Source: Mycobacterium sp. (GTDB lineage Bacteria; Actinomycetota; Actinomycetes; Mycobacteriales; Mycobacteriaceae). Taken from it: a stretch of 41,696 nucleotides of DNA. Positions 1,943-19,466 of this stretch are shown piece by piece. The stretch is taken from NCBI GenBank assembly GCA_025965975.1, contig JAOPVX010000033.1:1-41696 (forward strand), read 5' to 3'. The notes under the pieces were generated by a model. That model made no database searches and was not told the origin of the DNA. It saw only the letters and a program-made list of their open reading frames with translations. Each line of letters starts with the position of its first letter. Position 1 is the first letter of the stretch. The position numbers and the translations under genes were made by a program.

Positions 1943-1952
1943 GTCAGAGAGG

Positions 1953-3023: not shown

Positions 3024-4966
3024 GCGTTAGCTCCCACGCCAGTTGTATCAGTTTCGACGGTAGCCGCCGCCAACCGTGCGAACTTGGCCTTGTCAATTTC
3101 CTTGTCGCCCAACGTCCCATCGAGGGCGGCATCGATGATGCCCTCGACCTCTTCGGCCAGGAAGGCCATGCCTTCCACCTTCGTCACCGACTGGACATCG
3201 ACCAGGAACTTGCCGCGCAGCAGCAGGGCGAGCTGGCCGAGGTTCATCTCCGGCAGCACGACGTTGGGGTAGCGACGCAGCACCTCGCCCAGGTTGGCCG
3301 GGAACGGGTTGAGATTGCGCAGCTGCGCGTGGGCGACCTTGATGCCCTTGCGTCGCGCGCGCCGGCAGGCCTCGCCGATCGGACCGTAGCTGCTGCCCCA
3401 GCCGATCATCAGCAGCTCGGCGTCGTCGGTCGGGTCGTCGACCTCGAGATCCGGTACGGCGATACCGTCGATCTTGGCTTGCCGCAGTCGCACCATCAGG
3501 TCGTGATTCTTTGGCTCGTAGGAGATGTTGCCCGAGCCGTTGGCCGCCTCCAGACCGCCGATGCGGTGCTCCAGACCGGGCGTGCCCGGGACGGCGAACT
3601 GGCGCGCCAGGGTCTCCGGGTCGCGAGCGTACGGCTGGAACGGCTCACCGGTCTTCGCGAACGTGTGGTTGATCGGCGCGTAGGTGGTCACATCGGGGAT
3701 GCTCCACGGCTCCGAGCCGTTCGCGATCGCGCCGTCGGACAGGATGATCACCGGGGTGTGGTAGGTCACCGCGATGCGCGCGGCCTCGACGGCGACGTCG
3801 AAGCAGTCGGACGGGGTCCGCGGTGCCAGCACCGCGACCGGCGACTCGCCATTGCGTCCGTACAGCGCCTGCAATAGGTCTGCCTGCTCGGTCTTGGTGG
3901 GCAGCCCGGTGGACGGTCCGCCGCGCTGCACGTCGATGACGATCAGCGGAAGCTCGGTCATCACCGCCAGACCGATCGCCTCGGATTTCAGCGAGATGCC
4001 AGGGCCGGAGGTGGTGGTGATACCCAGCGCACCGCCGTATGAAGCGCCGATGGCCGCGCCGATGCCTGCGATCTCGTCTTCAGCCTGGAACGTCAGCACG
4101 TTGAAGTTCTTGTGCTTGGACAGCTCGTGGAGGATGTCCGACGCCGGGGTGATCGGGTAGCTGCCGAGCACGACCCGAATGTCGGCGAGTTGACCCGCGG
4201 TGATGAGGCCGTAGGCAAGCGCGGTGTTGCCCGAGATCTGCCGGTACTCACCGGACTTCAGCTTGGCAGGCCCCACCTCGTACGTGCTGGCGAACGCCTC
4301 GGTGGTCTCGCCGTAGTTCCAGCCGGCCTTCAGCGCCAGCACGTTGGCCTCGGCCACGTCGGGCTTGCGACCGAACTTCTCGCGGATGAACGCCTCGCTG
4401 TGCTCCAGCTCGCGGCCGTACATCCAGGACAGCAGCCCAAGCGCGAACATGTTCTTGGCGCGCTGGCCGTCCTTCTTGGAGGCGCCGATGGACTCGACCG
4501 CGCCGAGCGTCAGCGTGGTCATCGGGACGGCCTGCACGACGTAGTCGGACAGCTCGTCGCTTTCCAGCGGGTTGGCTTCGTAGCCGACCTTCGCGAGGTT
4601 GCGCTTGGTGAACTCGTCGGAGTTGGCGATGATCAGCCCGCCGCGGGGCAGATCGGACACGTTGGCCTTGAGGGCCGCGGGGTTCATCGTGACGAGCACG
4701 TCGGGGCGGTCGCCCGCGGTAAGGATGTCGTAGTCAGCAATCTGGATCTGGAACGAGGAGACGCCGGGCAGCGTGCCCTGTGGCGCACGGATCTCGGCGG
4801 GGTAGTTCGGTTGCGTCGCAAGGTCATTGCCGAACAGAGCCGCCTCTGAGGTGAACCGGTCGCCCGTGAGCTGCATACCGTCGCCGGAGTCACCGGCAAA
4901 ACGAATGACGACCTTCTCGAGCTTCTGCCGCGTGCCTGGACTGGTGTCGTTGCCGTTCGACCCCAC
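3020..4966 (-). CDS. korA: 2-oxoglutarate:ferredoxin oxidoreductase subunit alpha (gamma-alpha fusion)
   Basis: Large subunit partnering KorB. The N-terminal gamma-type domain begins KLEKVVIRFAGDSGDGMQ (residues about 15-32); the pyrimidine-binding alpha domain follows, with GSYPITPASDILHEL, FQAEDEIAG and QRGGPSTGLPTKTEQADL; a C-terminal transketolase-like domain (LLMIGWGSSYGP) closes the protein. The GTG at 4966 is preferred over upstream starts because GGAAGGC precedes it and the product (648 residues, starting VGSNGND) matches the length and N-terminus of the M. tuberculosis protein. The open frame continues to 5143, so a longer form cannot be excluded. The 270 bp upstream should hold the operon promoter; no clear operator was found there. 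Confidence 0.93.
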   Translation of the reverse strand: MGSNGNDTSPGTRQKLEKVVIRFAGDSGDGMQLTGDRFTSEAALFGNDLATQPNYPAEIRAPQGTLPGVSSFQIQIADYDILTAGDRPDVLVTMNPAALKANVSDLPRGGLIIANSDEFTKRNLAKVGYEANPLESDELSDYVVQAVPMTTLTLGAVESIGASKKDGQRAKNMFALGLLSWMYGRELEHSEAFIREKFGRKPDVAEANVLALKAGWNYGETTEAFASTYEVGPAKLKSGEYRQISGNTALAYGLITAGQLADIRVVLGSYPITPASDILHELSKHKNFNVLTFQAEDEIAGIGAAIGASYGGALGITTTSGPGISLKSEAIGLAVMTELPLIVIDVQRGGPSTGLPTKTEQADLLQALYGRNGESPVAVLAPRTPSDCFDVAVEAARIAVTYHTPVIILSDGAIANGSEPWSIPDVTTYAPINHTFAKTGEPFQPYARDPETLARQFAVPGTPGLEHRIGGLEAANGSGNISYEPKNHDLMVRLRQAKIDGIAVPDLEVDDPTDDAELLMIGWGSSYGPIGEACRRARRKGIKVAHAQLRNLNPFPANLGEVLRRYPNVVLPEMNLGQLALLLRGKFLVDVQSVTKVEGMAFLAEEVEGIIDAALDGTLGDKEIDKAKFARLAAATVETDTTGVGANA

Positions 4967-5235
4967 TCGCCTGCCTTCCGCGATGTTTCCGGCGAAGTCG
5001 GCCGAGTCGCGGTCGGGGGACGCGCCGTCGATCGACATTCGCATGACTTTGATGTCACTGCCAGTACCGATTATTGCACTTCTCTTAGGCGAGGCTTTAC
5101 CCGACTCGCGGAAAACATGGGTGTAACCGCGGACCGAACACACTGCTCAGCGGATGTGCGAAGAGACGTCGTGAGACATAAGTGTGTTATTCGTCACGCC
5201 GTTAAGAATGTTATTTCTAAGGAAATGGTTACCGA

Positions 5236-6249
5236 TCAGTAGCACCAGCTAGGCAGGTTGTAGGGCGTGATGACCTGGATAGGGACTGGTCGCGACGGCT
5301 CGACCGGCAACGCTCCGCGTTCCTGAAGGACCAGACGCATCGCGAGCCGCGCATCGGCGCGCAGATCGTTGTGCAGCACCACCGAGATATGGCCTTCACG
5401 CAGCAGCCGCCGGTTATCGGCGTCCAGGTCGTGCGCGACAAAGACACGACACGGCCGACCGAGCCGTGCGAACGCGGCGACCGTTGCGGTGTTGCCACCG
5501 CCGACGGAGTAGACGGCCTCGACGTTGGGGTGTTTTTCCAGCGCCTCGAGCACCAGCCGCTCGTTGGTCGCGTCGATGCCGTCGCTGTCACTGACTTCGA
5601 CGATTGCCCTGCCCGAGCCGCGCAACGCCGAGCGGAACCCGACCTCCCTCTCCCCTTCGCCGCGGAACACCGTGCGGCTGAGCGTGATGAGCACATCGGA
5701 CGCCGCCTGCCCAAGCCACTGGTTCATCAGATACGCGGCCGTCACCCCCGCCCCGTGGTTGTCGATGCCGACGTAACCGCAACGCGTACTGGCCGGCACG
5801 TCGGTCGCGTACGTCACCACGGGCACGCCGCCGTCGACGAGGCGGTCGATGGCCTCGGCCACCTCGGGTTCGTTCTGCGCCTTGAGCACCACGCCGTGGC
5901 TGCCGCGAAGACGGCCAAGCGCGTCGACCATCTGCGTCGTCGAACCCGACTCCCACAGATGAAAACGTGCCCGCACATTGGCCGGCGCGAACGCCGGCAA
6001 CTCGGCCTCGACCGCGGCCCTGAAGGCGTCGGAGAACCGCTGCGGCGTCTGCATGACGACGTCGACGAGGTAGCGGCGGCCGTTGAGCCGCAGCTGGGCA
6101 CGCTGCTTGTCCAGGTCGGCGACGGCCTGCATGACCTCTGCCCTTGTGTTCTCGCGCACCCCCGGCCGCTGATTGAGGACACGGTCGACGGTGGCCTCGC
6201 TCAGCCCGGACTGCTGAGCGATCTCGCGGACCTTGTAGCGGTGCGGCAT
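5236..6249 (-). CDS. LacI-family transcriptional regulator
   Basis: Sugar-responsive DNA-binding regulator of 337 residues. The N-terminal HTH reads YKVREIAQQSGLSEATVDRVLNQ (residues 5-27, split by the turn at SGLS), with hinge helix around residues 40-60. A periplasmic-binding-protein-like ligand domain follows (VDVVMQTP, GVVLKAQNEPE, GYVGIDNHGAGVTAAYLM, VEAVYSVGGGNTATV). It is transcribed divergently from the oxygenase/dehydrogenase operon starting at 6324, only 74 bp away. It is therefore the probable local regulator of that operon, with a cyclitol or related sugar as effector (inference). The VDRVLN variant replaces the commoner VSRVLN. Confidence 0.9.
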   Translation of the reverse strand: MPHRYKVREIAQQSGLSEATVDRVLNQRPGVRENTRAEVMQAVADLDKQRAQLRLNGRRYLVDVVMQTPQRFSDAFRAAVEAELPAFAPANVRARFHLWESGSTTQMVDALGRLRGSHGVVLKAQNEPEVAEAIDRLVDGGVPVVTYATDVPASTRCGYVGIDNHGAGVTAAYLMNQWLGQAASDVLITLSRTVFRGEGEREVGFRSALRGSGRAIVEVSDSDGIDATNERLVLEALEKHPNVEAVYSVGGGNTATVAAFARLGRPCRVFVAHDLDADNRRLLREGHISVVLHNDLRADARLAMRLVLQERGALPVEPSRPVPIQVITPYNLPSWCY

Positions 6250-6323
6250 CCTTCACGTCCTGAGGTGTTTTTGATGGGTTTTTGCTGTTGAATGCGGCGG
6301 CAGTCACAGCAAGACTAGCTGCC

Positions 6324-7487
6324 ATGGCCGCACCCGTGCGCACGACATACCTACCGTGGATCGACGAGTCCGACTGCCGGCTCGACGACTTCCGCGCACA
6401 GGTGCTGCGCGACGCCGATCTCGCCGACTACCCGCTGGCGACCGATCTGCGAAGCAACGTGCTGGTTTACTCCGCAGCCACCGTCGGTGCCGCCGACCGC
6501 AGGACGCTGCAGTCCGAACTGATCCGGGCGCTGGCCGATGGGCCCGGCGTGGTGATCTTCGAGGACGCGTTCTCCGCCGGCGTGGTGGACCGGGCCAGCG
6601 AGGCGTTCTTCGCGATCATCGATGCCCAGCGTGCAACCGGCGATGCACCCGGCGACCACTTCGGCAAGCCCGGCGCCAACGACCGGATCTGGAACGCCGC
6701 GCAGAAGCTCGCGCTGCATGCCCCGCAGGTGTTCGCCGACTACTACGCCAACGATGCGCTTGCCGTCGCCTGCCAAGCGTGGCTTGGCCCACGTTACCAA
6801 GTCACCTCGCAGGTGAATGTCGTCAACCCCGGTGGCACACAGCAGGTTCCACATCGGGACTATCACCTTGGCTTCGTGCCCGCCGAGCATCTGGCCTGCT
6901 ATCCCGCGCACGTGCACCGCACATCTGGAGCGCTGACGTTGCAGGGTGCGGTGGCGCACTGCGACATGCCGCTAGAAAGCGGTCCGACGATGTTGCTGCC
7001 GTTCTCGCAGCGATTCGAGGGCGGCTACCTCGCGTTCAACCGGCCGGAGTTCATCGATTTCTTCGCCGAACATCATGTGCAGGTGCCGCTGACCAAGGGT
7101 GACGCGGTGTTCTTCAACCCGGCGCTCTATCACGGTGCGGGGTCGAACATTTCGTCCGACATCCGCCGGATCGCCAATCTGTTGCAGATCTCGTCGCCGT
7201 TCGGTCGCGCGATGGAGGCGCTGGATCGCACCGCGATGGTGCGGGCGATCTATCCCGCACTACTCGCGATGAAGGCGGCGGGCCGCCCACGGTCCGAACT
7301 GCTCAACGCTGTGGTGGCGACCGCCGAGGGTTACGCATTTCCCACCAACCTCGACAGCGACCAGCCGATCGGCAGCCTGGCACCGCCCAGTCAGGTCGAC
7401 ACCGTGCTGGCTGCCTTGGCCGACGACCACACCGCGGAACAACTCGACGTCGCGCTGCGCGACCAAGATGATCGGAGAAAGCCATGA
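6324..7487 (+). CDS. Phytanoyl-CoA dioxygenase (PhyH) family oxygenase
   Basis: Predicted Fe(II)/2-oxoglutarate-dependent oxygenase of 387 residues. The double-stranded beta-helix metal triad is visible: HRDYHLG gives His177 and Asp179, and ALYHGAG gives His270; a nearby Arg pair in SDIRRIANLL would bind the 2-oxoglutarate carboxylate. ATG 6324 is chosen because residues before it are low-complexity and no ribosome site precedes the upstream TTG at 6282; a short-leader transcript is possible. It is the first gene of a tightly packed operon and overlaps the next gene by 4 bp. Substrate unknown: the company of inositol-dehydrogenase-like enzymes suggests hydroxylation or deoxygenation of a cyclitol, a methylated inositol or another sugar derivative. 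Confidence 0.8.
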   Translation: MAAPVRTTYLPWIDESDCRLDDFRAQVLRDADLADYPLATDLRSNVLVYSAATVGAADRRTLQSELIRALADGPGVVIFEDAFSAGVVDRASEAFFAIIDAQRATGDAPGDHFGKPGANDRIWNAAQKLALHAPQVFADYYANDALAVACQAWLGPRYQVTSQVNVVNPGGTQQVPHRDYHLGFVPAEHLACYPAHVHRTSGALTLQGAVAHCDMPLESGPTMLLPFSQRFEGGYLAFNRPEFIDFFAEHHVQVPLTKGDAVFFNPALYHGAGSNISSDIRRIANLLQISSPFGRAMEALDRTAMVRAIYPALLAMKAAGRPRSELLNAVVATAEGYAFPTNLDSDQPIGSLAPPSQVDTVLAALADDHTAEQLDVALRDQDDRRKP

Positions 7488-8491
7488 CCACTCTCGGCGT
7501 AATCGGATTGGGCCGCATCGGCGCGTTCCACACCGACACGCTGTCCGGCCTCGATGGTGTCGACGGGCTTGTCGTCGCCGACGAGCGCCTCGACGTGGTT
7601 GCGGCCGTTGCTGCCAAACATGGTGCAAAACCGGCAGATTCGGTGGAGGAGCTGCTGGCATCGGGCGTCGACGGAGTCGTGGTCTCGGCCGCAACGCCCG
7701 CGCACGCCGAGTTGACGCTGGCCGCCGTACATCGCGGTCTGCCGACCTTCTGCGAGAAGCCCATCGCCGCGACCGCGGCGGAAAGCGCCAGGGTCGCCGA
7801 GGTGATCGCTCGCTCCGGCGTGCCGGTGCAGGTCGGCTATCAGAGAAGGTTCGACGCCGCATTCGCCGCCGCCAAGCGCGCGGTCGACGACGGCTCGCTG
7901 GGCCTGCTGCACACCGTCCGCAGCACCACCATGGATCCCGCTCCCCCGCCGATGGAGTACATCGCGGGTTCCGGTGGAATCTTTCGCGACTGCGCGGTCC
8001 ACGATTTCGATGTGCTCCGCTGGATCACGGGGCAACAGGCAGTCGAGGTGTATGCGACCGGCAGCGTGCAGGGCGACCCGCGGTTCACCGAGTACGGCGA
8101 CGTCGACACCGCCGCGGTGGTGGTGACGTTTGATCAGGGCACCCTTGGGTTGGTGTCGGCGGCCCGCTACAACGGCCGCGGGTACGACTGCCGGCTGGAA
8201 GTCCACGGCTTCCATGACACCGTGGTTGCCGGCTGGGACCAGGGCGCGCCGGTGCGGAATGTCGATCCGGACAACGAGTTTCCTGGCGGTCCGGCGCATC
8301 ACTTTTTCATGGATCGCTTCACCGACGCGTTTCGCGCCGAACTGACCGCATTCGTCGACGTGGTCAACGGCATCGCCGCCCCTGCGTGCACGGTGGCCGA
8401 CGCGGTCGAGGTCGCCTGGCTGGCGGAAGCCGCGACGGAGTCGTTGCAGCGCGGTGTCCCGGTACGGATCGAGGACGTGAGATCACAGTGA
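7484..8491 (+). CDS. Gfo/Idh/MocA oxidoreductase, inositol 2-dehydrogenase-like
   Basis: NAD(P)-dependent polyol dehydrogenase of 335 residues. The Rossmann motif GVIGLGRIG lies at residues 5-13. The family EKP motif (91-93) supplies Lys92, and RDCAVHDFD supplies Asp169 and His173, the Lys/Asp/His arrangement of characterised inositol dehydrogenases. The ATG overlaps the stop of the oxygenase gene (ATGA), and its own stop overlaps the next start by 4 bp. It resembles IolG but is clearly distinct from the iolG at 30169, so it probably acts on another inositol isomer (scyllo- or chiro-) or a related sugar acid. The exact substrate cannot be read from the sequence. Confidence 0.85.
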   Translation: MTTLGVIGLGRIGAFHTDTLSGLDGVDGLVVADERLDVVAAVAAKHGAKPADSVEELLASGVDGVVVSAATPAHAELTLAAVHRGLPTFCEKPIAATAAESARVAEVIARSGVPVQVGYQRRFDAAFAAAKRAVDDGSLGLLHTVRSTTMDPAPPPMEYIAGSGGIFRDCAVHDFDVLRWITGQQAVEVYATGSVQGDPRFTEYGDVDTAAVVVTFDQGTLGLVSAARYNGRGYDCRLEVHGFHDTVVAGWDQGAPVRNVDPDNEFPGGPAHHFFMDRFTDAFRAELTAFVDVVNGIAAPACTVADAVEVAWLAEAATESLQRGVPVRIEDVRSQ

Positions 8492-9384
8492 AAATCCTGA
8501 AGATCGCAGGCGCACCAATCTCGTGGGGTGTGTGCGAGGTGCCCGGGTGGGGGTATCAGCTCACCCCCCAACGCGTACTCGCCGAGATGCGTGATGTGGG
8601 GCTGGCGGCAACCGAACTGGGGCCCGAGGGCTTCCTGCCGTCCGATCCCGACGAGCTGACTGCCCTGCTGGATTCCTATAGTCTCAGCTGTGTCGGCACC
8701 TTCGCGCCGGTCCTGCTGCACGACGCCGGGCACGATCCGCTGCCCGACATCGCCGGCCCGCTCGACGCGCTGGTGGCATGCGGGGCCGACGTTCTCGTGC
8801 TGGCCGCGGCGACCGGCACCGACGGATACGACTCCCGCCCGACGCTCGACGACGGCCAATGGGCCACCCTGCTGGGCAATCTCGATCGGCTGGCCGCCGC
8901 AGCAGCGCAGAGGGGCGTGCTCGCGGTGCTGCACCCGCATGTCGGCACGATGGTGGAGACCCGTAGCGACGTCGACCGCGTGCTGGCCGGTTCGCAGATC
9001 AAGCTGTGCCTTGACACCGGCCACCTGTTGATCGGCGGCACGGATCCGCTGCAGTTGGCCCGCGCGGTGCCTGGCCGCATCGCCCACGCCCACCTCAAGG
9101 ACGTCGACGCCGCACTCGCCGCCCAGGTTCAAGCCGGTGAACTGACCTACACCGAGGCCGTACGTAAAGGCATGTACACGCCGCTCGGCGGCGGCGACGT
9201 CGACATCGCCGGGATCGTCACGGCATTGCGCGGCAACGGTTTTGACGGCTGGTTCGTAATGGAGCAGGACACCATCCTCGACGGCGAGCCGACCGATGAG
9301 AGACCGGTGCGCGACGTGCGGAGCAGCGTGGCCTATGTGCGCAGTATTTGTCAGTCCGCCGTGCCGCCTCCTATACCGGCATGA
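8488..9384 (+). CDS. IolE-like sugar isomerase/dehydratase, TIM barrel
   Basis: Xylose-isomerase-like TIM-barrel protein of 298 residues. The GTG at 8488 overlaps the preceding stop (GTGA), and residue 1 leads straight into the first beta strand KILKIAGAPISWGVCEVPG. The segments TELGPEGFLPSDPDEL, LHPHVGTMVE, CLDTGHLLIGG, HAHLKDV and VMEQDT match the metal-binding strands of inosose dehydratase (IolE). They parallel those of the iolE at 29252, of which this is a divergent paralogue. Following a dehydrogenase, it would most simply dehydrate or isomerise a keto-inositol or keto-sugar; the precise reaction is an inference. Confidence 0.8.
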   Translation: MKILKIAGAPISWGVCEVPGWGYQLTPQRVLAEMRDVGLAATELGPEGFLPSDPDELTALLDSYSLSCVGTFAPVLLHDAGHDPLPDIAGPLDALVACGADVLVLAAATGTDGYDSRPTLDDGQWATLLGNLDRLAAAAAQRGVLAVLHPHVGTMVETRSDVDRVLAGSQIKLCLDTGHLLIGGTDPLQLARAVPGRIAHAHLKDVDAALAAQVQAGELTYTEAVRKGMYTPLGGGDVDIAGIVTALRGNGFDGWFVMEQDTILDGEPTDERPVRDVRSSVAYVRSICQSAVPPPIPA

Positions 9385-10343
9385 GCCTGCGGATCGGGGT
9401 GCTCGGCGCGTCGCGGATCGCCGAACTCGCCATCGTCGGCCCAGCGCACGAGCTGGGCCACCGGCTGGTCGCCGTCGCGGCACGTGACCGGCAGCGGGCG
9501 CAGTTGTTCGCCGAAAAGCACGGCGTTGAGCGCGTTTTGGCATCCTACGACGAAGTGGTCAATGATCCCGACGTCGACGTCGTGTACAACCCGCTGGCCA
9601 ATGCGTTGCACGCGCCGTGGAATCTGGCTGCCGTCGCGGCGGGTAAGCCGGTGCTGACCGAGAAGCCATTCGCGCGCGACCGCGCGGAAGCGCAGCGGGT
9701 CGCTGCCGCGGCCGACGCCGCGGGAATCACCGTGATGGAGGGGTTCCACTACCTGTTTCATCCGGTAACCCGCCGCGCACTGGAACTAGCCGGCGACGGC
9801 ACGCTCGGTGAGCTGGTTCACGTCGAGGTGCGGATGGCGATGCCGGCGCCGGAGGACGGCGACCCGCGATGGTCGCTGGAGCTGGCGGGCGGCGCACTGA
9901 TGGATCTGGGCTGCTACGGCCTTCACGTCATGCGGCGCCTTGGCCATCCGTCGATCGTGCACGCCCACGCCGAGCAGCGCAGCCAGGGTGTCGACGCGTG
10001 GTGCGACGTCGATCTCGCTTTTCCGGGCGGGGCGACAGGACTGAGTGCGAATTCGATGGTCGCCGACGACTACATGTTCACGCTTCGCATCGTTGGCACG
10101 CGCGGAGATGTGTTGGTGCACAACTTCATTAAGCCCCACGATGACGACCGGCTGACCATCAACACGCCGGAAGGCACCACGGTCGAGCGGCTGGGCACCC
10201 GGGCGTCCTACACCTACCAACTCGAAGCGTTCGCCGCCCATGTGCAGCACGGCGCACCGCTACCGCTCGACCCCGCCGACGCGGTGGAGAACATGGCGTA
10301 TGTCGACGCCGCGTACCGTGCGGCGGGCATGGTTCCGCGCTAG
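9381..10343 (+). CDS. Gfo/Idh/MocA family oxidoreductase
   Basis: Second dehydrogenase of the operon, 320 residues. ATG 9381 overlaps the upstream stop by 4 bp; the longer frame from 9348 would invade that gene. The Rossmann motif IGVLGASRIA is at residues 5-14, NPLANALHAPW at 70-80 and the EKP motif at 94-96; GGALMDLGCYGLHVMR holds the substrate-site residues. The PLANALHAPW pattern is typical of the glucose-fructose-oxidoreductase / dihydrodiol-dehydrogenase branch rather than true IolG. The proposed role is oxidation or reduction of the sugar handled by the preceding three genes. It ends the operon, converging on degraded genes. Confidence 0.83.
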   Translation: MSLRIGVLGASRIAELAIVGPAHELGHRLVAVAARDRQRAQLFAEKHGVERVLASYDEVVNDPDVDVVYNPLANALHAPWNLAAVAAGKPVLTEKPFARDRAEAQRVAAAADAAGITVMEGFHYLFHPVTRRALELAGDGTLGELVHVEVRMAMPAPEDGDPRWSLELAGGALMDLGCYGLHVMRRLGHPSIVHAHAEQRSQGVDAWCDVDLAFPGGATGLSANSMVADDYMFTLRIVGTRGDVLVHNFIKPHDDDRLTINTPEGTTVERLGTRASYTYQLEAFAAHVQHGAPLPLDPADAVENMAYVDAAYRAAGMVPR

Positions 10344-10344
10344 A

Positions 10345-10565
10345 CCGCCGTCGCGCCATTGAGGCGACGCGGCGGGCTCCTCGAGCAGCTTGTTGCAACT
10401 GCGTTCGGCAACCGCAGCGATGGTCTTGGACGGATTTCGCCCGATGGCCCTTGGAATCACGGACCCGTCGATCACAAACAGATTGTCGTAACCGAACACC
10501 TCGCCCATGTGGTTGGTGATCCCGGCGCCCGCCGCGGCCGCCATGTTGCACCCGCCGAGCGGATG
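10345..10565 (-). pseudogene. GMC oxidoreductase C-terminal remnant
   Basis: Reading the minus strand from 10565 gives HPLGGCNMAAAA followed by GITNHMGEVFG, LFVIDGSVIPRAIG and NPSKTIAAVAERS. This is the classic C-terminal block of GMC flavoprotein oxidases/dehydrogenases (cholesterol-oxidase-like class), including the His of HPLGG and the Asn of NP. Only about 75 residues survive: the FAD-binding N-terminus is missing and the normal stop is lost, the frame running into the neighbouring gene. It begins exactly where the LuxR remnant ends, so a deletion has joined two unrelated genes. Confidence 0.7.
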
Positions 10566-11392
10566 AGTCCGCCCACCTCGGCGGCATCTACGGCGTCCTC
10601 GGCGGCAAGCTCACACAGCACGTCGACATCGAGTGGCTCACACAGCGCCAACGGTTTCAGAGCATTGACGGCGTCGCCGACCTGGTCGAGGCGGTCTTCG
10701 AGCAACTCGGCCAGCCCAGACGGGACGGCCGCGAGGCCGCGCAGCTGCCAGACCCCGTCAACTTCGGTAGCGTTCCTGCGTCGAGTGCGCCCTCGACCAT
10801 GTGGCGTAGAAACAGCGGATTACCGCCGGACGCATCCCACATGACGTCGGCGGACAGGCCCTCCAGCGTTCCGCCCAGAACGGATTCGATCAGTGTGATG
10901 CTCTGCTGCTTCGTGAACGGCATGAGGTCAACTCGCTGCAGATAATTGTCCTTCCACAACGCCGTGACGGCATCGGGTACCGGTTCACCGTTGCGGACCG
11001 TGGCCACGATCTGTCCGGCACCTTCGACGGCGATCTGGTGTAGCAGCGTCGAGGACAGGGGTCGAGCAGGTGCGCATCGTCAACACCGATGACGGTGTCG
11101 GGACCGGCGAGAATCGACTCGCGCGTGGCGGCGAGAAGGGCGACGGGTCACGGGAGCCTGTCGTCGGGACCCGGTGGGCGAAAACGCCGAGCGGGATGCT
11201 GCGCGAGGACTCGGTGCAGCCGACCCAATTGACGTCCGAACGCAGCGTTGCGGTAACCGCGCGCGCCAGAGTGGATTTGCCGACGCCGGCCGCGCCGGTC
11301 AGCACGACACCGCCGCCTGTGCCGCCCGTCAACGTCGAACGAACCGAGTCGAACTCCGCTGGGCGTTCCAGCAACTGCCACCGGTTAGCCAT
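10566..11392 (-). pseudogene. Degraded LuxR/LAL-family regulator (ATPase part only)
   Basis: The gene starts with ATG at 11392 (MANRWQLLERPAEF). It has a Walker A motif TGAAGVGKSTLA and, after a frame change, a Walker B-like VIGVDDAHLLDP, then IVATVRNGEPVPDAV, WDASGGNPLFLRHMVEGA and LAELLEDRLDQVGDAV. This is the STAND ATPase order of large LuxR (LAL) activators. At least three frame changes are needed, near 11150, 11058 (GACCCCTGTCC, where one base seems lost) and 10762. The remaining ATPase and the C-terminal HTH are gone, replaced by the GMC remnant. Non-functional unless sequencing errors explain the shifts, which would not restore the missing C-terminus. Confidence 0.75.
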
Positions 11393-11509: not shown

Positions 11510-12631
11510 CTAGGCCGGCAGCTGGGCTACGTCGGTCGGTTCCATTCTGGGGACGTGGTTCACTCGGTGCCGAAAGTCGCTCGACGCGTCGTACACCAGC
11601 TTCTTAAGTCGATTGATCGAGCCGAGGGGCCGGTGCGCCGCCAATCCGCACCACGAGTTGTACGACAACACATCATCACCGAATCTGCGTCGCTCGGGGG
11701 TGTCGGGGTCTTGGACGGGAAACGTTATCTTGGCGACTGGAACATGCGGGGAGTCTTTCTCCGGCCACGGGACGGTGGCATCCTCGATGGGCATTTTCGT
11801 CAGGTCAGTGCATAGCTGCACCTTTAGTTCGTATTCGGCGCTGTTGGTGCGGAACAACTCAACGACCATGTCGCGGAACGCATCCTTGCCCGCGCCTGCG
11901 GGAACCGGCTGACCGGCTAATACCTTGACGGACTTCGATAGCGGTGTGTAACAGACCTTGGCGACGTAGTCGCCCCACCGCAACGGAGCCGAGGAGTAGA
12001 ACGCCAAGCCAAGGATGTGGGTGTTGGCTTCGCTGAACAGTTCCAAGGCCACTGGGAGGGACTTATGGACGCGCTTGAGCACGGCCTGGACCGCGCCGAG
12101 CGCGGTGCCGGTCAGGATCATCGCCCGGTCGGGCATGCGAGCCAACAGCCACGCCACCGGCATGCCGCGCTTCAGATAGGCATATGCGTCGGGAAACGGA
12201 AATTCCCGATGCGTGACCAGAATGAAGTCTTGTGTCGTCGCTTTGTCGTCGGGCAGCGAGCGCTTGCCGTCCACGCCGAGCACCTTGATGGCCAGGCCGC
12301 GCACCCCGCGGCATTGGTCACTGCGCAGCGCTCCCGACGTGCTGGACAGTCTGGCGATGACCGGGTATGTCGCCGGTGTCGCGAACAGGCCCTGCCGGTA
12401 GGGCTCTGGCAGATCGGGATAAATGGTGAGCTCCCCGCGCAGGATGCCGTGGCTCTTGGCGTGGGCATCGCGGATGCCGTGCTTGTACTTCTTGAACGCC
12501 CACACGTTGTTGCCGTGCAGTGCGTCGGCGATCTTCTTGACGAGCTGATCCTCGTCGGGCCGAGGCTGCTCCAGATCGTCGCGGTAGACGACGTATGCCG
12601 GCGTAGCAGGAGGGTCAACGGTATCGGTCAT
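11510..12631 (-). CDS. Catalase-related haem protein (organic hydroperoxide-metabolising class)
   Basis: A 373-residue member of the catalase-like haem fold, much shorter than true catalases. Distal haem residues sit in RDAHAKSHGILRGELTI (His57 replaces catalase VHAKG); ARLSSTSG and RGVRGLAIKVLG match the catalase core; the catalase Asn segment is replaced by TTQDFILV. The proximal region reads LSYNSWCGLAAHRPLGSINR (Tyr324 the likely haem ligand). Relatives include mycobacterial catalase-related peroxidases and coral allene oxide synthase, which act on fatty-acid hydroperoxides. It lies 130 bp downstream of an alpha-dioxygenase-like gene on the same strand, which makes a fatty hydroperoxide substrate likely (inference). 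GAAGGAA precedes ATG 12631. Confidence 0.82.
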   Translation of the reverse strand: MTDTVDPPATPAYVVYRDDLEQPRPDEDQLVKKIADALHGNNVWAFKKYKHGIRDAHAKSHGILRGELTIYPDLPEPYRQGLFATPATYPVIARLSSTSGALRSDQCRGVRGLAIKVLGVDGKRSLPDDKATTQDFILVTHREFPFPDAYAYLKRGMPVAWLLARMPDRAMILTGTALGAVQAVLKRVHKSLPVALELFSEANTHILGLAFYSSAPLRWGDYVAKVCYTPLSKSVKVLAGQPVPAGAGKDAFRDMVVELFRTNSAEYELKVQLCTDLTKMPIEDATVPWPEKDSPHVPVAKITFPVQDPDTPERRRFGDDVLSYNSWCGLAAHRPLGSINRLKKLVYDASSDFRHRVNHVPRMEPTDVAQLPA

Positions 12632-12761
12632 GTAGATGAGTTCCTTCCGAGCGAAGGCGGCTGCGTAGTTGCGTTTTCGACCATGCCCCGTAGGGTCCTG
12701 TGCGGCATGCGTAGTGCACTACTCGAAACTGCGTCGGATGCGCGGCGCGCCGACTGCGCGC

Positions 12762-14582
12762 TCACGTCGGGTTAGCCCGCGCCGAGTTCCACGGCGCGAA
12801 CGGGTTGGCGACGCCGCGCAGCGCCGGTTCAAGGGACGGGAAGTGACGTAACAACACGGTGCGCATCGTGTTGTTCTTGACCCACTCAACCCCGCCCGGT
12901 GTGTAGACCTCCGGACAAAAATCGGTGGTGAAGAAGCGATCGCTTTCCAGCCGTCGTGATGCCATGAGGATGAACACCCGAAACGCGGTGTCGCTGAACC
13001 CGAATCCTGCCGGCTTGGCTTCGGCGTACAACCCGACCATCAGGTCAACGCGCTCGATATCGCCGTAGATCTGCCGCAACTCCGCCGCGCACGACGGATT
13101 GTCGGTCAGATCCTCAAACGATGAGGCCGGTTTCAAGCGCAACAGCCGGCGGAACTCGTTGTAGCGGGGAACACCCCGTTCGCGTATCCGCAATATGTCG
13201 ATCGCGCCGAGGTCGACAAGTTCCCCGTCAGCCTTGGTGAAGTGCTGCAGGTGGCGCGGATAGTTGTGCAGCGTGAGCGCGCCGGGATGCGCGCGGCCGA
13301 ACGAGTAGATGATGTCGTCCATCGATAGTTCGGACAGGCGCTGGCGGACCTCGAACACGGTCAGATCCGGCAGCTCGTGGCGGGCCAGTTCGGAGTCATC
13401 GTCGACCGAGCGGAAAATGAATTCGTCGGGGATCAGTGGATGCATCCGGTAGACCGCGACGAACTCCTCGGTCAGTGAATACGGGATACCATGCAGTTCG
13501 GTCGGCGATCCAGGGATGCCGCCCAGCAGCGTATTGGTGCCGAAACGGCCGAAGCGTTGGGCGAACCGTTCCCCCAGGACACCGAACCAGTTCGCACGCA
13601 ACGCGAACACGGTCGTTGGGTGGGCGATGATCGCCGGTGTCCAGTCGACGGTGTGAATCTTGGCTATCAACGCCGCATTGACCAGCCGTGCTTTGTCGTA
13701 CAGCTCCTGGTCGGTCATCGAGGGGTATTCGGCCTCGAGCCTTGCGCATATCGAGTTGTGCTCGCGCATGAACAACGAATGCAAGATCGCCAGACCGATC
13801 CAGAAGTTGCCCGCCGCGCCGTGCAGGTCGACATACTGCGCGGCCGCCTCGGGCGGCAGCCCGAGGCCATCGATCAGCAGGCGCCCCCGCGGACCGCGGA
13901 TTGCATTCGCGAAACCCGGTGAGCTTCCATAGATTTGGGAGGCGTCCCACCAATGGCTGTCTTGCGTCACGAACGTGGGTGGACCCCAGCCGTCGGGGGC
14001 GGGGTCCGGCGCGGTCCGCTTGATCACCATGTCCTCGGGGGCGGAGTCGGGCTTGGCCCGCTTGACTGCCAGGTCCTGATCTGGCCATGGGTCATCGGGC
14101 TGCAGCGGAATTCGCCACGGTTGGTCATCGGTGAAGCCGTGGCTTACCCAGTCATGGACCTCGAACTGGATCCACGCCGCGGCGAGCACGTTTAGCGTGG
14201 TGGCCGGCTGGAATTGATCGCGAGTGAGCAGCCGCCGGCTGATCAACCGCGGATTTGGTTCAAGGAGTGCAACCGGTTCCTCGGGATAGGTGTGCGTCAG
14301 CGGGACGTTTCGGCCGAATCGGCTTCCGACCGCACCCATCAGCGGATCGCTCAGATTGTTCTGGCAGCCGGTCAGCGTGCGGGCGGACAGCCCCGCTGCG
14401 GTGACGAGATGATCGCGCATCGACGCGTCGCGGCCGGTGTCATACAGATTCTTTGACCGCAGCTGTTCTCGAAGGCCGATCAGTACCGGTATCGCCAATA
14501 CGGTGGGCAACCGTGGCCAACCGATGATGCGGTCCACGCCTTCGGCAAGCCGCGCAGCGAGTCGCGTGAAGGCATTGCTCAT
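12762..14582 (-). CDS. Fatty-acid alpha-dioxygenase-like haem peroxidase (cyclooxygenase superfamily)
   Basis: A 606-residue animal-type haem peroxidase. The distal haem motif QFEVHDWVSHG gives His143. KIHTVDWTPAI and ANWFGVLGERF precede PYSLTEEFVAVYRMHPLIPD, where Tyr378 lies three residues before proximal His381 (YRMH, equivalent to YHWH in cyclooxygenases). The PYSLTEEF-VYRMH block is the signature of plant-type alpha-dioxygenases, which add O2 to the alpha carbon of fatty acids, giving 2-hydroperoxy acids that shorten to aldehydes. ATG 14582 is chosen; the frame opens at a TTG at 14639 without a ribosome site. No signal peptide is evident. Probably co-transcribed with the catalase-related gene downstream. 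Confidence 0.85.
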   Translation of the reverse strand: MSNAFTRLAARLAEGVDRIIGWPRLPTVLAIPVLIGLREQLRSKNLYDTGRDASMRDHLVTAAGLSARTLTGCQNNLSDPLMGAVGSRFGRNVPLTHTYPEEPVALLEPNPRLISRRLLTRDQFQPATTLNVLAAAWIQFEVHDWVSHGFTDDQPWRIPLQPDDPWPDQDLAVKRAKPDSAPEDMVIKRTAPDPAPDGWGPPTFVTQDSHWWDASQIYGSSPGFANAIRGPRGRLLIDGLGLPPEAAAQYVDLHGAAGNFWIGLAILHSLFMREHNSICARLEAEYPSMTDQELYDKARLVNAALIAKIHTVDWTPAIIAHPTTVFALRANWFGVLGERFAQRFGRFGTNTLLGGIPGSPTELHGIPYSLTEEFVAVYRMHPLIPDEFIFRSVDDDSELARHELPDLTVFEVRQRLSELSMDDIIYSFGRAHPGALTLHNYPRHLQHFTKADGELVDLGAIDILRIRERGVPRYNEFRRLLRLKPASSFEDLTDNPSCAAELRQIYGDIERVDLMVGLYAEAKPAGFGFSDTAFRVFILMASRRLESDRFFTTDFCPEVYTPGGVEWVKNNTMRTVLLRHFPSLEPALRGVANPFAPWNSARANPT

Positions 14583-14673
14583 GGCCACATCGTTCGACGG
14601 TTTTTGCAGGCCGATGGCGCAGTGTCGGCAGTTGCACAATTGGCTCGCGGCGGCGCGCCGCTAGATGGCGGTT

Positions 14674-15606: not shown

Positions 15607-16431
15607 CTATGCGCCTTTACCGCGCAATTCGTGCGAAAGCGCCTCCAGTTCGTCGCCGCCTGCCATCTCCTGCGTCAGGTGCTCGAGCGTGATGTCGTCA
15701 TACGTGCAGTCCAGCTTTTGCTGACCGCGGTTGAGCAGCACGAAGTGATCGCCGACCATGTGCGCGTGGTGCGGGTTGTGCGTGATGAACACCACACCGA
15801 AGCCGGCTTCCTTGGCCGCGGTGATGTACTTCAGCACCACGCCGGACTGCTTGACGCCGAGCGCGGCGGTGGGCTCGTCGAGGATCAGCACCCGCGCCCC
15901 GAAGAACACCGCCCGCGCGATCGCCACGCATTGACGTTGGCCGCCGGACAGCGAGCCGATCGCCACATCGACGTCGGGCAGATCGATGCCCATCTTCGAT
16001 AGCTCCGTCAGCGTGGTGGCCCGCATCGCGTTGGCGTCCAACGGCCATGGGAAGCGCTTCTGCCGGATCTCCTGGCCCAGGAAAAAGTTGCGCCACACCG
16101 GCATCAGGGGGACCACGGCGAGGTTCTGATACACCGTCGCGATGCCCTTGGCCAGTGCCTCTTTCGGCGAATTGAACTTCGTCGGGTCGCCGTCGACCAG
16201 CAGTTCACCATCGGTCTGCTGGTGCAGACCGGAGATGATCTTGATCAGCGTCGACTTGCCTGCGCCGTTGTCGCCGAGGATCCCGGTCACCTCGCCGGCG
16301 TGCACCCGAAGCGAAATATCCTTCAAAGCAGTGATATTCCCGTAGGACTTGCCGACATTCTTCATCTCGACCAACGGCACCTTGCCTCCGGACGGGGCGT
16401 CATGCACGGGTCGATCCACAGTTACGGTCAT
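15607..16431 (-). CDS. Ribose/inositol-type (CUT2) ABC transporter, ATP-binding protein
   Basis: Cytoplasmic ATPase of a sugar importer, 274 residues. Walker A GDNGAGKST is at residues 53-61; signature SLSGGQRQCVAIARA, Walker B VLILDEPTAALG and the switch His in FITHN follow. It has a single ATPase domain, like FrcA-type proteins, whereas RbsA-type relatives are double-length. It follows the permease gene by 3 bp in the order binding protein, permease, ATPase. Proximity to the iol genes and a shared operator point to inositol or another cyclitol as cargo. Confidence 0.93.
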   Translation of the reverse strand: MTVTVDRPVHDAPSGGKVPLVEMKNVGKSYGNITALKDISLRVHAGEVTGILGDNGAGKSTLIKIISGLHQQTDGELLVDGDPTKFNSPKEALAKGIATVYQNLAVVPLMPVWRNFFLGQEIRQKRFPWPLDANAMRATTLTELSKMGIDLPDVDVAIGSLSGGQRQCVAIARAVFFGARVLILDEPTAALGVKQSGVVLKYITAAKEAGFGVVFITHNPHHAHMVGDHFVLLNRGQQKLDCTYDDITLEHLTQEMAGGDELEALSHELRGKGA

Positions 16432-16434
16432 GGG

Positions 16435-17493
16435 TCACTTCTTCGCGGCGTAGTTACGGAAGGCGTTGTTGGCGATCACCGCGAACAGCAGCATCACGCC
16501 CATGAAGAACTTGAACCAGTCGGGATTCCAGCCGGCATACACGATGCCCTGTTGCACCATGCCGAAGATAAACGCGCCGATCGCGGCGCCGATCGCGGTG
16601 CCGTATCCGCCGGTCAGCAAGCAGCCGCCGATCACCGCGGCGATGATGTAGATGAACTCGTTGCCGACGCCCTGGCCGGACTGCACCGTGTTGAACGCGA
16701 ATAGCAGATGCATGCCGGCGAACCAGGCGCAGAAGCCGACGAACATGAATAGCCCGATCTTCACTGCCGTCACCGGCACACCGACCGCACGGGCACTGTC
16801 CTGGTCGCCGCCGACGGCGAAGATCCAATTGCCGATCTTGGTTTTGAACAGCACGTAGGTCGCGACGGCGGTGAACAGCAGCCACCACAGCACGGTGATG
16901 CGGACGCTGACACTGCCGATGGCGAACGACGACGAGAAGACCGCCTTGGCAGAATCCCAACCCTGCATGTCCGACACACTTTGGGTGGCCACCTGCCCCG
17001 AAATCAGCTTGGTCACAGCGAGGTTGATACCGGTGAGCATCAATAATGTGCCCAACGTGATGAGGAAGCTTGGGATCTTCGTCTTCATCACGAGGTAGCC
17101 GTTGAGGAAGCCGACGCTCAGCGCCAGGATCAGCGCCAGTCCCGCTCCCACCCACAGGTTCAAGTGCAGGTTGTACGCCAGCATCGATGCGGCCAGCGAA
17201 CTGAACGTCACGGCCACACCGGATGACAAGTCGAACTCACCGCCGATCATCAGGAGTGCCACGGCACAGGCCATGATCCCGATGGTCGACGACGCGTAGA
17301 GCACGGTGGCCAGAGCCTCGGGGCTGCGGAACGGCGGTGCCACGACCAAGAAGAATATGAAAATTGCGACCGCGCCGATCAGCGCACCCGTCTCCGGCCG
17401 AATCAGCAAGCGCTGAACACGGTTTCGCTCCTTGACCCGTTCATCGCGGACGACCTTGTGTTTGGTCAGATCCAGATCTGCTTGAGTAGACAT
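16435..17493 (-). CDS. Ribose/inositol-type ABC transporter permease
   Basis: Membrane channel subunit of 352 residues with about ten hydrophobic segments. These include IGAVAIFIFFLVVAPPF, IGIMACAVALLMIGGEFDLS and FLITLGTLLMLTGINLAVTK; the GGEFDLSSG and AVGVPV segments are typical of RbsC-like permeases. ATG 17493 is chosen because GAGAGGAACC precedes it; the longer open frame to 17688 overlaps the binding-protein gene in nonsense sequence. Middle gene of the three-gene transporter operon. Confidence 0.92.
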   Translation of the reverse strand: MSTQADLDLTKHKVVRDERVKERNRVQRLLIRPETGALIGAVAIFIFFLVVAPPFRSPEALATVLYASSTIGIMACAVALLMIGGEFDLSSGVAVTFSSLAASMLAYNLHLNLWVGAGLALILALSVGFLNGYLVMKTKIPSFLITLGTLLMLTGINLAVTKLISGQVATQSVSDMQGWDSAKAVFSSSFAIGSVSVRITVLWWLLFTAVATYVLFKTKIGNWIFAVGGDQDSARAVGVPVTAVKIGLFMFVGFCAWFAGMHLLFAFNTVQSGQGVGNEFIYIIAAVIGGCLLTGGYGTAIGAAIGAFIFGMVQQGIVYAGWNPDWFKFFMGVMLLFAVIANNAFRNYAAKK

Positions 17494-17510
17494 GGTTCCT
17501 CTCTCCCGGC

Positions 17511-18500
17511 TCAGCGAGTTCCGGACTTGGCCAGCTCGGCGACGGCGTCGATGTTGGACTTGTCGATGAACGAGGGTCCGGTCAGGGTGGGCTGGCCACC
17601 GCCGATCAGGTTCTTGTTGTTGATGAATAGCCACAGCGAGTCGATCGCGAGATAGCCCTGAAGGAAGGGCTGCTGGTCGACGGCCCACTCCACCTTGCCG
17701 GACTTGATGGCACCGACGAGCGCGGCGTTGGTGTCGAAGGTGACGACCTTGGCCGAGCTGCCGGCATTGCCGACCGACTGCACGGCAGTCAAGGCAATCG
17801 GCGCACCGAGTGCGACGACGTGGTCGACGGAGGGATCCTGCTGCAGCTTAGCGGTGATGGTCGATTCGACAGACGGCATGTCTTTGCTGTTGACGTTGAG
17901 GATCTCGGTCTGTCCCTTGAATCCCTGGGTGACGCCGGCGCAGCGGGATTCGAGCGCAACCTGCCCCTGCTCCTGGATCACGCAGATCACCTTCCTCGCA
18001 CCATCGGTATTAAGGCGTTCTCCCGCAGCAACTCCGGCGAGCTTCTCATCCTGTCCGAAATACTCCTGGATACCCTGCTGCTTGAAGTTGTCGAAACCCG
18101 AGTTGAACGCCACCACGGGGATGTTCACCGCAAGCGCGGCCTTGACTGCAGGCGCCATGGCGTCCGGCTTGGCCAACGTCACCGCGATGCCGTTGACCTT
18201 GCTGTCGATCGCGCTCTGCACCAGATTCGCTTGGTTGGGCGCTTCGGGATCGTTCGAATAGCGCAGATCGATGTTGTCCTTGTCCGCAGCGGCTTGTGCG
18301 CCCTTGCGGATGAGATCCCAGAAGGAGTCGCCCGGCACTTCGTGCGTGATCATCGCGACGGTCGCCCGCGGCGTGTTCGCCTGGCCCGCGCCCATACCCC
18401 CGCCGTTTTCCTGCGGCTTTCCGCCGGTGCTTGAACATGACGCGATTCCAACCACGAGCACGCTCGCTCCGGCGATCGCCGCGAGCCGGCTGAACCTCAT
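17511..18500 (-). CDS. Sugar ABC transporter substrate-binding lipoprotein (RbsB/IbpA-like)
   Basis: Captures the sugar outside the membrane. ATG 18500 follows an excellent ribosome site (GGAGGAGAT). The 329-residue product has a lipoprotein signal (VLVVGIASC, Cys22 as lipid-anchored residue), a Gly-rich linker, and a periplasmic-binding fold: VAMITHEVPGDSFWDLIRKG, IDSKVNGIAVTL, VVAFNSGFDN, VVTFDTNAALV. First gene of the operon; its promoter carries the shared operator at 18604-18626 on the -35 box (TTGACT). Cargo is probably myo-inositol or a related cyclitol, by context. Confidence 0.92.
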   Translation of the reverse strand: MRFSRLAAIAGASVLVVGIASCSSTGGKPQENGGGMGAGQANTPRATVAMITHEVPGDSFWDLIRKGAQAAADKDNIDLRYSNDPEAPNQANLVQSAIDSKVNGIAVTLAKPDAMAPAVKAALAVNIPVVAFNSGFDNFKQQGIQEYFGQDEKLAGVAAGERLNTDGARKVICVIQEQGQVALESRCAGVTQGFKGQTEILNVNSKDMPSVESTITAKLQQDPSVDHVVALGAPIALTAVQSVGNAGSSAKVVTFDTNAALVGAIKSGKVEWAVDQQPFLQGYLAIDSLWLFINNKNLIGGGQPTLTGPSFIDKSNIDAVAELAKSGTR

Positions 18501-18603
18501 ATCTCCTCCGCTCTTCGCGCGAGCGCTCATCGCAGTTCCGCCTCATCATTCGAGCGTCGCGTGACACGCCTCACAGCTCGATGTAATACGGCTCACACCT
18601 GAA

Positions 18604-18626
18604 AGTCAATACTTTGTTCGGACATT
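18604..18626 (-). promoter_or_regulatory. Operator copy A overlapping the transporter promoter
   Basis: On the minus strand this reads AATGTCCGAACA followed by AAGTATTGACT. TTGACT (18609-18604) is a good -35 box for the binding-protein gene, with TTACAT about 17 bp further on as -10. The core TGTCCGAACA is an imperfect palindrome. The same 22 bp occurs at 24401-24422 with 20 of 22 identities, again on a TTGAC -35 box. It lies between two divergent operons and could act on both. The adjacent GntR protein is the likely binder. Confidence 0.7.
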
Positions 18627-18689
18627 AGGACTGCATATCAAATGTTAGAGTCCGTCCATGCTGGTCAACGCAAGGGAGGTGACAACACG

Positions 18690-19466
18690 ATGAGTGACTT
18701 CGAGCTCGCGGTCTGTTCCGAGATGGTCTTCCTCGACATGCCGATCCTTGAGCGGGTGCGGCGCATCCACGACCTGGGGTTCGCCGTCGAGATCTGGAGC
18801 TGGCACGACAAAGACCTGCAGGCGCTGGCCGATACCGGCGCCAGGTTCTCCTCCATGACAGGCTATCTTCACGGCGACCTCATCGACACCGCCACCGCAG
18901 ACGACGTCGTGCGGACGGCGGAGCTGTCGGTGAAAGCCGCTGAAACACTTGGTGTTCCACGTCTGAACCTGCACACGGCGGAGCTGGTCGACGGCAAGGC
19001 TGCCCGCCCGCGCTACCGGGCAAGCGGACAGATGTGGACCACGGCGTTGCGGACGCTGGAATGCATCGGCGAGCTCGGCGCCGCGGCCGGCGTGACGTTC
19101 TGCGTGGAGAACCTCAACACGATCGTCGACCACCCCGGCGTCGCGCTGGCCCGCGCCAAGGACACGCTCGCCCTCGTCGAGGCCGTCGGGCATCCGAACG
19201 TGCGGATGATGCTCGACCTGTACCACGCACAGATCGGGGAGGGGAATCTCATCGAGTTGATCCGGCGCTGCGGCGACGCGATCGGCGAGGTCCAGATCGC
19301 CGACGTGCCGGGCCGGTGCGAACCGGGAACCGGCGAGATCAACTACCCGGCGATCGCCCGTGCCCTGCGCGACATCGGGTACACCGGCACCGTCGGGCTC
19401 GAGGCGTGGGCGTTGGGCGATAGCGCGGCGGCGCTGGCGGCGTTCCGCTCGGCGTTCGCGACCTAG
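18690..19466 (+). CDS. Hydroxypyruvate isomerase-like TIM-barrel protein
   Basis: A 258-residue sugar isomerase/epimerase, the same length as E. coli hydroxypyruvate isomerase. ATG 18690 follows AAGGGAGGTG. Family blocks: LGFAVEIWSW, TLGVPRLNLHTAE, VTFCVENLNT (metal Glu), MMLDLYHAQIGEGN and VQIADVPGRCEPGTGEINYP, which match Hyi-type proteins well; the usual ending is altered to VGLEAW. Heading an operon with a sugar ABC transporter under the probable inositol operator, it may isomerise an intermediate of cyclitol or keto-sugar breakdown. True substrate unknown. Confidence 0.82.
   Translation: MSDFELAVCSEMVFLDMPILERVRRIHDLGFAVEIWSWHDKDLQALADTGARFSSMTGYLHGDLIDTATADDVVRTAELSVKAAETLGVPRLNLHTAELVDGKAARPRYRASGQMWTTALRTLECIGELGAAAGVTFCVENLNTIVDHPGVALARAKDTLALVEAVGHPNVRMMLDLYHAQIGEGNLIELIRRCGDAIGEVQIADVPGRCEPGTGEINYPAIARALRDIGYTGTVGLEAWALGDSAAALAAFRSAFAT

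Follow-up and report, generated by a model that had tools for sequence, protein, structure and literature searches.

What becomes of the 2-hydroperoxy acid made by a fatty acid alpha-dioxygenase, and which enzyme handles it, are questions raised by two genes on contig JAOPVX010000033.1 of a Mycobacterium sp. genome of 7.4 Mb (GCA_025965975.1). The window, that is, the whole stretch of 41,696 nucleotides analysed here, contains a gene for a plant-type fatty acid alpha-dioxygenase (hereafter aDOX) followed on the same strand by one for a small catalase-related haem protein (hereafter CAT). For the plant enzymes, the accessible parts of two accounts describe spontaneous decomposition or reduction of the 2-hydroperoxide and name no partner enzyme (PMC8720084, PMC4490225). 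An earlier reading of the letters of the window, here called the sequence-only reading, had located both open reading frames (ORFs) on the minus strand, where we also find them (Table 1), and had proposed a two-enzyme oxylipin module. The most far-reaching interpretation, to which we give a probability of roughly 45%, is that the pair belongs to a class of di-haem oxylipin synthase not described before, in which an alpha-dioxygenase and a catalase-related domain, fused at least twice in opposite orders (in mycobacteria, and in Rhizobiales and other actinobacteria), would carry out a dedicated, regulated alpha-oxidation to chain-shortened aldehydes or another 2-hydroperoxide-derived lipid, at a catalase-fold site suited to alpha-hydroperoxides, which in the mycobacterial class has Lys near the proximal Tyr and Thr in place of the distal Asn.

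The linkage of the two families was surveyed in 198 genomes of the genus, including that of the window, with one genome per species, each being searched with both proteins and the coordinates compared; these genomes are related, and the counts that follow are of non-independent events. A close, or class-1, aDOX, defined as at least 64% identical to that of the window, is present in 30 of the 198 genomes, and CAT is present in all 30. In 29 of them CAT lies within 310 bp of aDOX on the same contig, the spacing between the matches being 7-134 bp on the same strand (23 genomes) or 262-310 bp in divergent orientation (6 genomes), and in G021 the pair is split by contig ends, the aDOX match stopping 61 bp short of one contig end and the CAT match starting 57 bp into a different contig. 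No CAT was detected within 10 kb on the contig, some contigs being short, for 24 distant full-length aDOX loci (43-52% identical). Not included in the counts are aDOX matches that were only partial (17, at 20-36% identity) and weak CAT matches (six, with E of 9.1e-5 or worse). Chance adjacency is ruled out by this genus-wide co-occurrence. With 29 of 30 pairs adjacent and ten of the 30 fused, the conserved adjacency that the sequence-only reading had set as its test is borne out, and the arrangement, a dioxygenase gene next to or fused to a catalase-related gene, is like that of Nostoc (see below).

A second survey, of named genomes with one genome per species, used an aDOX alignment as query and took the best 80 of at least 580 relatives, with flanks of 6 kb (shorter at contig ends). 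CAT, detected with a profile built from alignment A1, occurs in the flanks of 41 of these 80 loci, in one of them as a match cut off by the contig edge. The class corresponds, in the aDOX tree, to a clade of 50 rows (support 97/85), composed of the window, 32 named loci from Mycobacterium in the broad sense, Nocardia and Gordonia, and 17 others, one of them a duplicate, and CAT lies beside every row. Among the named loci, CAT accompanies 32 of the 32 within the class versus 9 of the 48 remaining. The aDOX and CAT distances of 49 loci are also correlated (Mantel r 0.86, with 0 of 2000 permutations as high), a result not taken as proof because shared species history confounds it.

The two genes are not only neighbours. 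aDOX and CAT share one open frame in ten of the 30 class-1 genomes (G086, G022, G073, G116, G131, G154, G061, G067, G059 and G060), three of which are single-contig assemblies, and the seven fusions re-read at length have both domains on one chain, with CAT C-terminal and a linker, measured between the NPFxPW end of aDOX and the first Tyr conserved in CAT, of about 9 to 30 residues. This C-terminal fusion occupies 12 rows of a 69-row aDOX tree and requires at least three changes on well supported branches there, gains or losses being alike possible. Among unfused tandem class loci, a possible start codon for CAT shares 4 nt (ATGA or GTGA) with the end of aDOX, stop codon included, in 22 of 31, or 21 of 30 distinct loci given that L127 and L112 are one locus; these start codons are mechanical candidates, and most overlap loci offer alternatives. 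An assembly error, requiring one indel at the 4-nt overlap, was considered as the origin of the fusions and rejected, since three fused clades of several genomes each show consistent frames and differing linkers, an argument with less force where a fused row stands alone (L114 and L115).

The opposite order, with CAT N-terminal, was found at ten loci, nine of them in plasmid records. The hosts are Rhizobium phaseoli, R. jaguaris, R. leguminosarum, Rhizobium sp. NXC24, CB3060, CB3171 and Kim5, Phyllobacterium sp., Nonomuraea gerenzanensis and the actinobacterial genome G322, which is of the same class as the window; several of the Rhizobium copies are near-identical. Similarity to aDOX was present in 26 plasmid records, and the thirteen of these that were opened comprise the nine fusions, three unfused genes (Streptomyces NBC_00069, Qingshengfaniella and Calothrix) and an Acaryochloris protein with a different N-terminus. 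Among the aDOX matches in 296 genomes sampled from the phylum, G322 is the sole CAT-aDOX fusion. Pfam finds both Catalase and An_peroxidase in the fusion protein of R. phaseoli, WP_199287286.1. Four CAT-aDOX loci match the CAT profile by construction, because they were included in it, and CAT was found in these four by single-sequence phmmer as well; their four rows form a separate clade of the aDOX tree with full support. Since the two genes are fused in both orders, a partner enzyme for the alpha-hydroperoxide is indicated.

The first enzyme can be assigned to its family. aDOX matches Pfam An_peroxidase (E 4.7e-102), and its best solved relatives are the alpha-dioxygenases 4kvj, 4hhr and 4kvl, which align over the full length (query residues 7-601, E 3e-107 to 1e-106), the next solved match being lactoperoxidase 8s6c (E 1e-26); NCBIfam gave no match for either aDOX or CAT. 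Tyr378, His381, His310, Arg544 and Arg549 are invariant in the 19 rows aligned; the window protein also has the distal His (in HDW), which 16 of the 19 rows keep. We take Tyr378 to be the catalytic residue, His381 the proximal ligand and the conserved His and Arg substrate-binding, and the window protein thereby has the catalytic residues of a plant-type alpha-dioxygenase; the solved relative 4kvl has Phe in the alignment where aDOX has the catalytic Tyr. The roles of the Tyr and of the haem ligand in alpha-dioxygenases are stated in the accessible text of PMC8720084. From its family and conserved catalytic residues, aDOX is predicted to oxygenate fatty acids at C2.

The second enzyme is less conventional. 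CAT barely exceeds the Pfam Catalase cut-off (26 bits against 25) and does so over residues 36-122 only. Its best solved relative by family profile is the short protein 3e4w (320 residues, E 9.3e-16), ahead of full catalases, and the similarity is remote, as a single-sequence search of solved structures with CAT did not find 3e4w. We take 3e4w to be MAP-2744c, a mycobacterial organic peroxidase. The residues were compared in alignment A3, which holds the window and, with four near copies excluded, 36 of the 40 loci where CAT matched in full. In all 29 class-1 rows CAT has the distal His of catalases (His57) and Tyr347 at the haem-ligand column, and haem binding by this short catalase core (373 residues, with 3e4w nearest) is predicted. 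The same 29 rows have Thr140 at the distal-Asn column, as set by profile alignment to catalase 9t0l, and Lys343 four residues before Tyr347. Catalases carry Arg at the latter position, as do 3e4w and the 8 rows of the other subfamily; at the distal-Asn column 3e4w shares the Thr of CAT. This second CAT subfamily near aDOX (Streptomyces, Chloroflexota, Pseudonocardia) has Asn at the distal-His column in 8 of 8 rows. As the distal Asn, the Arg and a full-length catalase domain are not found in CAT, its identity as a true H2O2 catalase was dropped.

The one pointer to a fatty acid hydroperoxide as the substrate of CAT is its genomic link to aDOX, and on this basis we hold it rather probable that CAT acts on the aDOX product. 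The two would then work as a two-haem relay, in which aDOX would oxygenate a free fatty acid with O2 at its alpha carbon, giving a 2(R)-hydroperoxy acid, and CAT would receive this unstable product and split its O-O bond in a controlled manner at a tyrosinate-ligated haem, the hydroperoxide being handed over inside one protein in the fused forms. On chemical grounds, an allene oxide cannot form from a C2 hydroperoxide that has no double bond next to it, and therefore cleavage with loss of CO2, or reduction, is likely. As far as the accessible text goes, alpha-dioxygenases are described as giving unstable 2(R)-hydroperoxy acids that yield chain-shortened aldehydes with loss of CO2, or 2-hydroxy acids (PMC4490225, PMC8720084). 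Our preferred outcome would be a lyase-like reaction to the chain-shortened aldehyde and CO2, with reduction to the 2-hydroxy acid as second choice, although we put forward the aldehyde over the 2-hydroxy acid only tentatively. Either way, the pair would make up the complete route from fatty acid to oxylipin or aldehyde.

Reduction is central to a different proposal, in which CAT would be a peroxidase that uses an external electron donor to turn the 2-hydroperoxy acid into the 2-hydroxy acid, so that the module would supply 2-hydroxy fatty acids for lipids. The presumed organic peroxidase activity of 3e4w, its nearest solved relative, agrees with this idea. So does the partial reduction of plant alpha-dioxygenase products to 2(R)-hydroxy acids described in the accessible part of PMC4490225. 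A candidate donor, a reductase with flavodoxin, FAD and NAD domains (family F5), lies in convergent orientation beyond the gene that follows CAT, but only nine of the 33 loci have it; it is encoded on the opposite strand and has a molybdopterin-binding domain, as in another system. No donor gene common to most of the class was recognised in the 33 loci, whose neighbour families were typed in part, and we consider such a donor-dependent peroxidase quite unlikely.

The gene that follows CAT, or the fusion, encodes about 870 residues and is found downstream in all 32 named class loci, although two contigs end within it and the L128 copy is without some stretches. The one copy tested by Pfam contains an AAA domain, TPR and a C-terminal LuxR-family GerE domain, and the protein is therefore considered a LuxR-type ATPase regulator, under which the cluster of the related genomes is probably placed. 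This regulator also accompanies CAT where aDOX is missing. Eight of the 38 CAT-bearing genus genomes have no class-1 aDOX, and all eight carry the regulator directly after CAT, with no aDOX in the surrounding sequence, which spans some 6 kb each way except for one side of L211, where it is about 2.5 kb; six of them have no full-length aDOX match at all, and G077 and G142 have a distant aDOX elsewhere. Among L205-L211, six of these eight loci share neighbours on both sides and L211 shares them on the one side covered by its contig, which indicates a stable chromosomal site. In a CAT tree made by a quick method and showing long branches, seven of the eight are sister to the aDOX-linked CATs (support of that group 91) and one is nested among them, likely through loss of aDOX. 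Within the genus the dependence is one-sided: class aDOX comes with CAT, and CAT does not need aDOX. Because eight genomes keep CAT and regulator without a class-1 aDOX, CAT serves, or once served, on a different substrate or in a different role.

Such loci weigh against an action of CAT on the aDOX product, as do four further points. The Thermoleophilia locus L121, sister of the class and 66% identical, is class-1 by identity alone and is counted among the 48 named loci outside the clade; it has no CAT in its 6-kb flanks. In the window, the 130-nt gap (the longest minimal gap of the unfused tandem class-1 set) and the broken regulator mean that this pair may be a decaying or rewired copy. Since alpha-dioxygenase products decay unaided in plants, a second enzyme is not strictly needed. 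Finally, the aligned Lys before the proximal Tyr and Thr at the distal-Asn column set CAT apart from catalases.

The aDOX-less CATs lend weight to the view that CAT is a protector, which would clear H2O2 or lipid peroxides harmful to the oxygenase haem or to the cell, without forming a specific product, and which fusion would keep close to the oxygenase. This stays a serious rival because CAT occurs without aDOX: CAT and regulator with no aDOX nearby in eight genomes fit a free-standing peroxide enzyme, CAT falls within the catalase superfamily, and 3e4w is presumably an organic peroxidase. However, the Thr and Lys shared by all 29 class-1 rows are unlike true catalases, three weaker CAT-profile matches elsewhere in the genome of the window are probably ordinary catalases, and a general scavenger would have no need of fusion; on balance we regard a protector as unlikely. 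The same loci could also mean that CAT and regulator are an older unit beside which aDOX landed once, a bystander linkage with which the position of seven of the eight CATs outside the aDOX-linked group and the solitary aDOX of L121 would agree. This is highly improbable to us, given that class aDOX is always found with CAT, both in the genus survey (30 of 30) and at the named loci (32 of 32), that in-frame fusions recur alongside 4-nt overlaps, and that the opposite-order fusion stands in a separate aDOX clade.

A di-haem synthase of this type would have relatives among described systems. In Nostoc punctiforme a linoleate 10S-dioxygenase is paired with a catalase-related 10S-hydroperoxide lyase (Brash et al. 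2014, cited in PMC13049297), and, so far as that partial account goes, the likeness is that the fatty hydroperoxide formed by a haem dioxygenase of the COX family is split by a catalase-related haem protein, which is encoded by a gene of its own. Compared by description, the present dioxygenase differs in being of the plant alpha-dioxygenase type, so that the hydroperoxide is expected at C2, and the present pair differs in being fused in part of the genomes and in having a LuxR-type regulator in the cluster. The family linkage proposed by the sequence-only reading stands (CAT in 30 of 30, adjacent in 29 of 30, fused in 10 of 30), whereas that reading had overlooked the regulator, the aDOX-less CATs, L121 and the Nostoc precedent. 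In corals, a catalase-related allene oxide synthase or hydroperoxide lyase is fused to the 8R-lipoxygenase that supplies its hydroperoxide; its partner is an unrelated lipoxygenase, whereas fusions of aDOX with CAT occur with either domain first, and a reference title indicates a conserved distal Asn137 in the coral enzyme where CAT has Thr (PMC5617202, in the portion available). Plant and cyanobacterial alpha-dioxygenases (4kvj, 4hhr; CalDOX and LepDOX, PMC8720084) are of the same family as aDOX, with the same catalytic Tyr, His and Arg, but in the available text they are described without a partner. According to the same partial source, sequences of more than 1000 residues were dropped before its tree was built, and the word catalase is absent from what is available of its main text. 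Fungal dioxygenase-P450 fusions likewise join a dioxygenase, within a single chain, to a second haem domain that processes the hydroperoxide, this domain being a P450 and not catalase-related (PMC13049297, as far as available). No alpha-dioxygenase/catalase-related pair or fusion was found in titles and abstract starts of the open-access literature, which is weak evidence, subscription papers being mostly outside it; none is listed there for mycobacteria either, in keeping with the previous view that no such mycobacterial pathway is described.

If the di-haem reading is true, the alpha-dioxygenase would be the third kind of oxygenase to team with a catalase-related haem protein, after lipoxygenase and 10S-dioxygenase. 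The data suggest a lipid-oxidation route with its own regulator in mycobacteria, Nocardia and Gordonia, and the old question of the purpose and the handler of the alpha-hydroperoxide is now testable with a single cloned protein.

The features of the window are collected in Table 1. For aDOX, the open frame permits an alternative TTG start at 14639. The GC content of aDOX and CAT, examined as a check for horizontal insertion, is 63% versus 65% for the window, a difference too small to stand out. The module lies between two flanks (6282-10343 and 15607-19466) with sugar-catabolism-type genes and a sugar-type ABC transporter, named from ORF reading. When the 33 loci were compared, none of the window ORFs near the module fell into a family of three or more members, aDOX, CAT and the remnant of the regulator excepted.

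Table 1. Features of the aDOX-CAT locus in the window.
Feature	Position	Strand	Description	Basis
aDOX	14582..12762	minus	plant-type fatty acid alpha-dioxygenase, 606 residues	ORF from ATG
CAT	12631..11510	minus	small catalase-related haem protein, 373 residues	ORF, Pfam, family profile
Intergenic gap	12632..12761	minus	between aDOX and CAT, 130 nt	
GGAAGGA	12642..12648	minus	ribosome-binding-like, 10 nt ahead of the CAT start codon	read from sequence
GTAGTGCACTAC	12711..12722		perfect 12-nt palindrome inside the aDOX-CAT gap, putative operator	
Regulator remnant	10559..11392	minus	residues ~10-289 of 875, four pieces in three frames	

Several minor observations concern other settings of the two families. 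Three mycobacterial aDOX relatives (L103, L104 and L105) have N-terminal extensions with weak TPR-repeat matches, and the distal His is missing in two of them, L103 and L105. These extensions and that of the Acaryochloris protein (L097) were considered as further CAT fusions and rejected, as Pfam gave weak TPR-like matches only and no Catalase. In five mycobacterial loci (L128, L130, L135, L137 and L158) aDOX has on its upstream side, in divergent orientation, a gene for a family F6 protein; the one copy tested shows hemopexin repeats and an astacin-like part.

In Streptomyces and other bacteria, the flanks of aDOX contain a cassette of a 424-residue protein, a Dyp-type peroxidase and a CAT of the second subfamily, with Asn at the distal-His column (L161, positions 1526-10784; L159, L162, L166, L167, L169, L180, L185, L187, L191 and L199); the 424-residue protein was not seen in L191, and L162 and L180 are without a CAT match. 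The distant mycobacterial aDOX of G077 (L212) also lies beside a Dyp-type peroxidase and the 424-residue protein, with no CAT in the stretch. Among 124 plasmid CAT records, three of the nearest type were opened (L098, L099 and L101, 44-47% identical); their CATs adjoin a Dyp-type peroxidase and another common protein, with no aDOX match in the stretch, and the Roseomonas and Deinococcus plasmid loci also encode a 3-hydroxyacyl-CoA dehydrogenase, together with an oleate hydratase in Roseomonas. A patatin-like phospholipase follows aDOX in L161 and L180, lies downstream of the unfused aDOX of Calothrix (L096) and, as annotated, stands upstream of the CAT-aDOX fusion of Phyllobacterium (L216).

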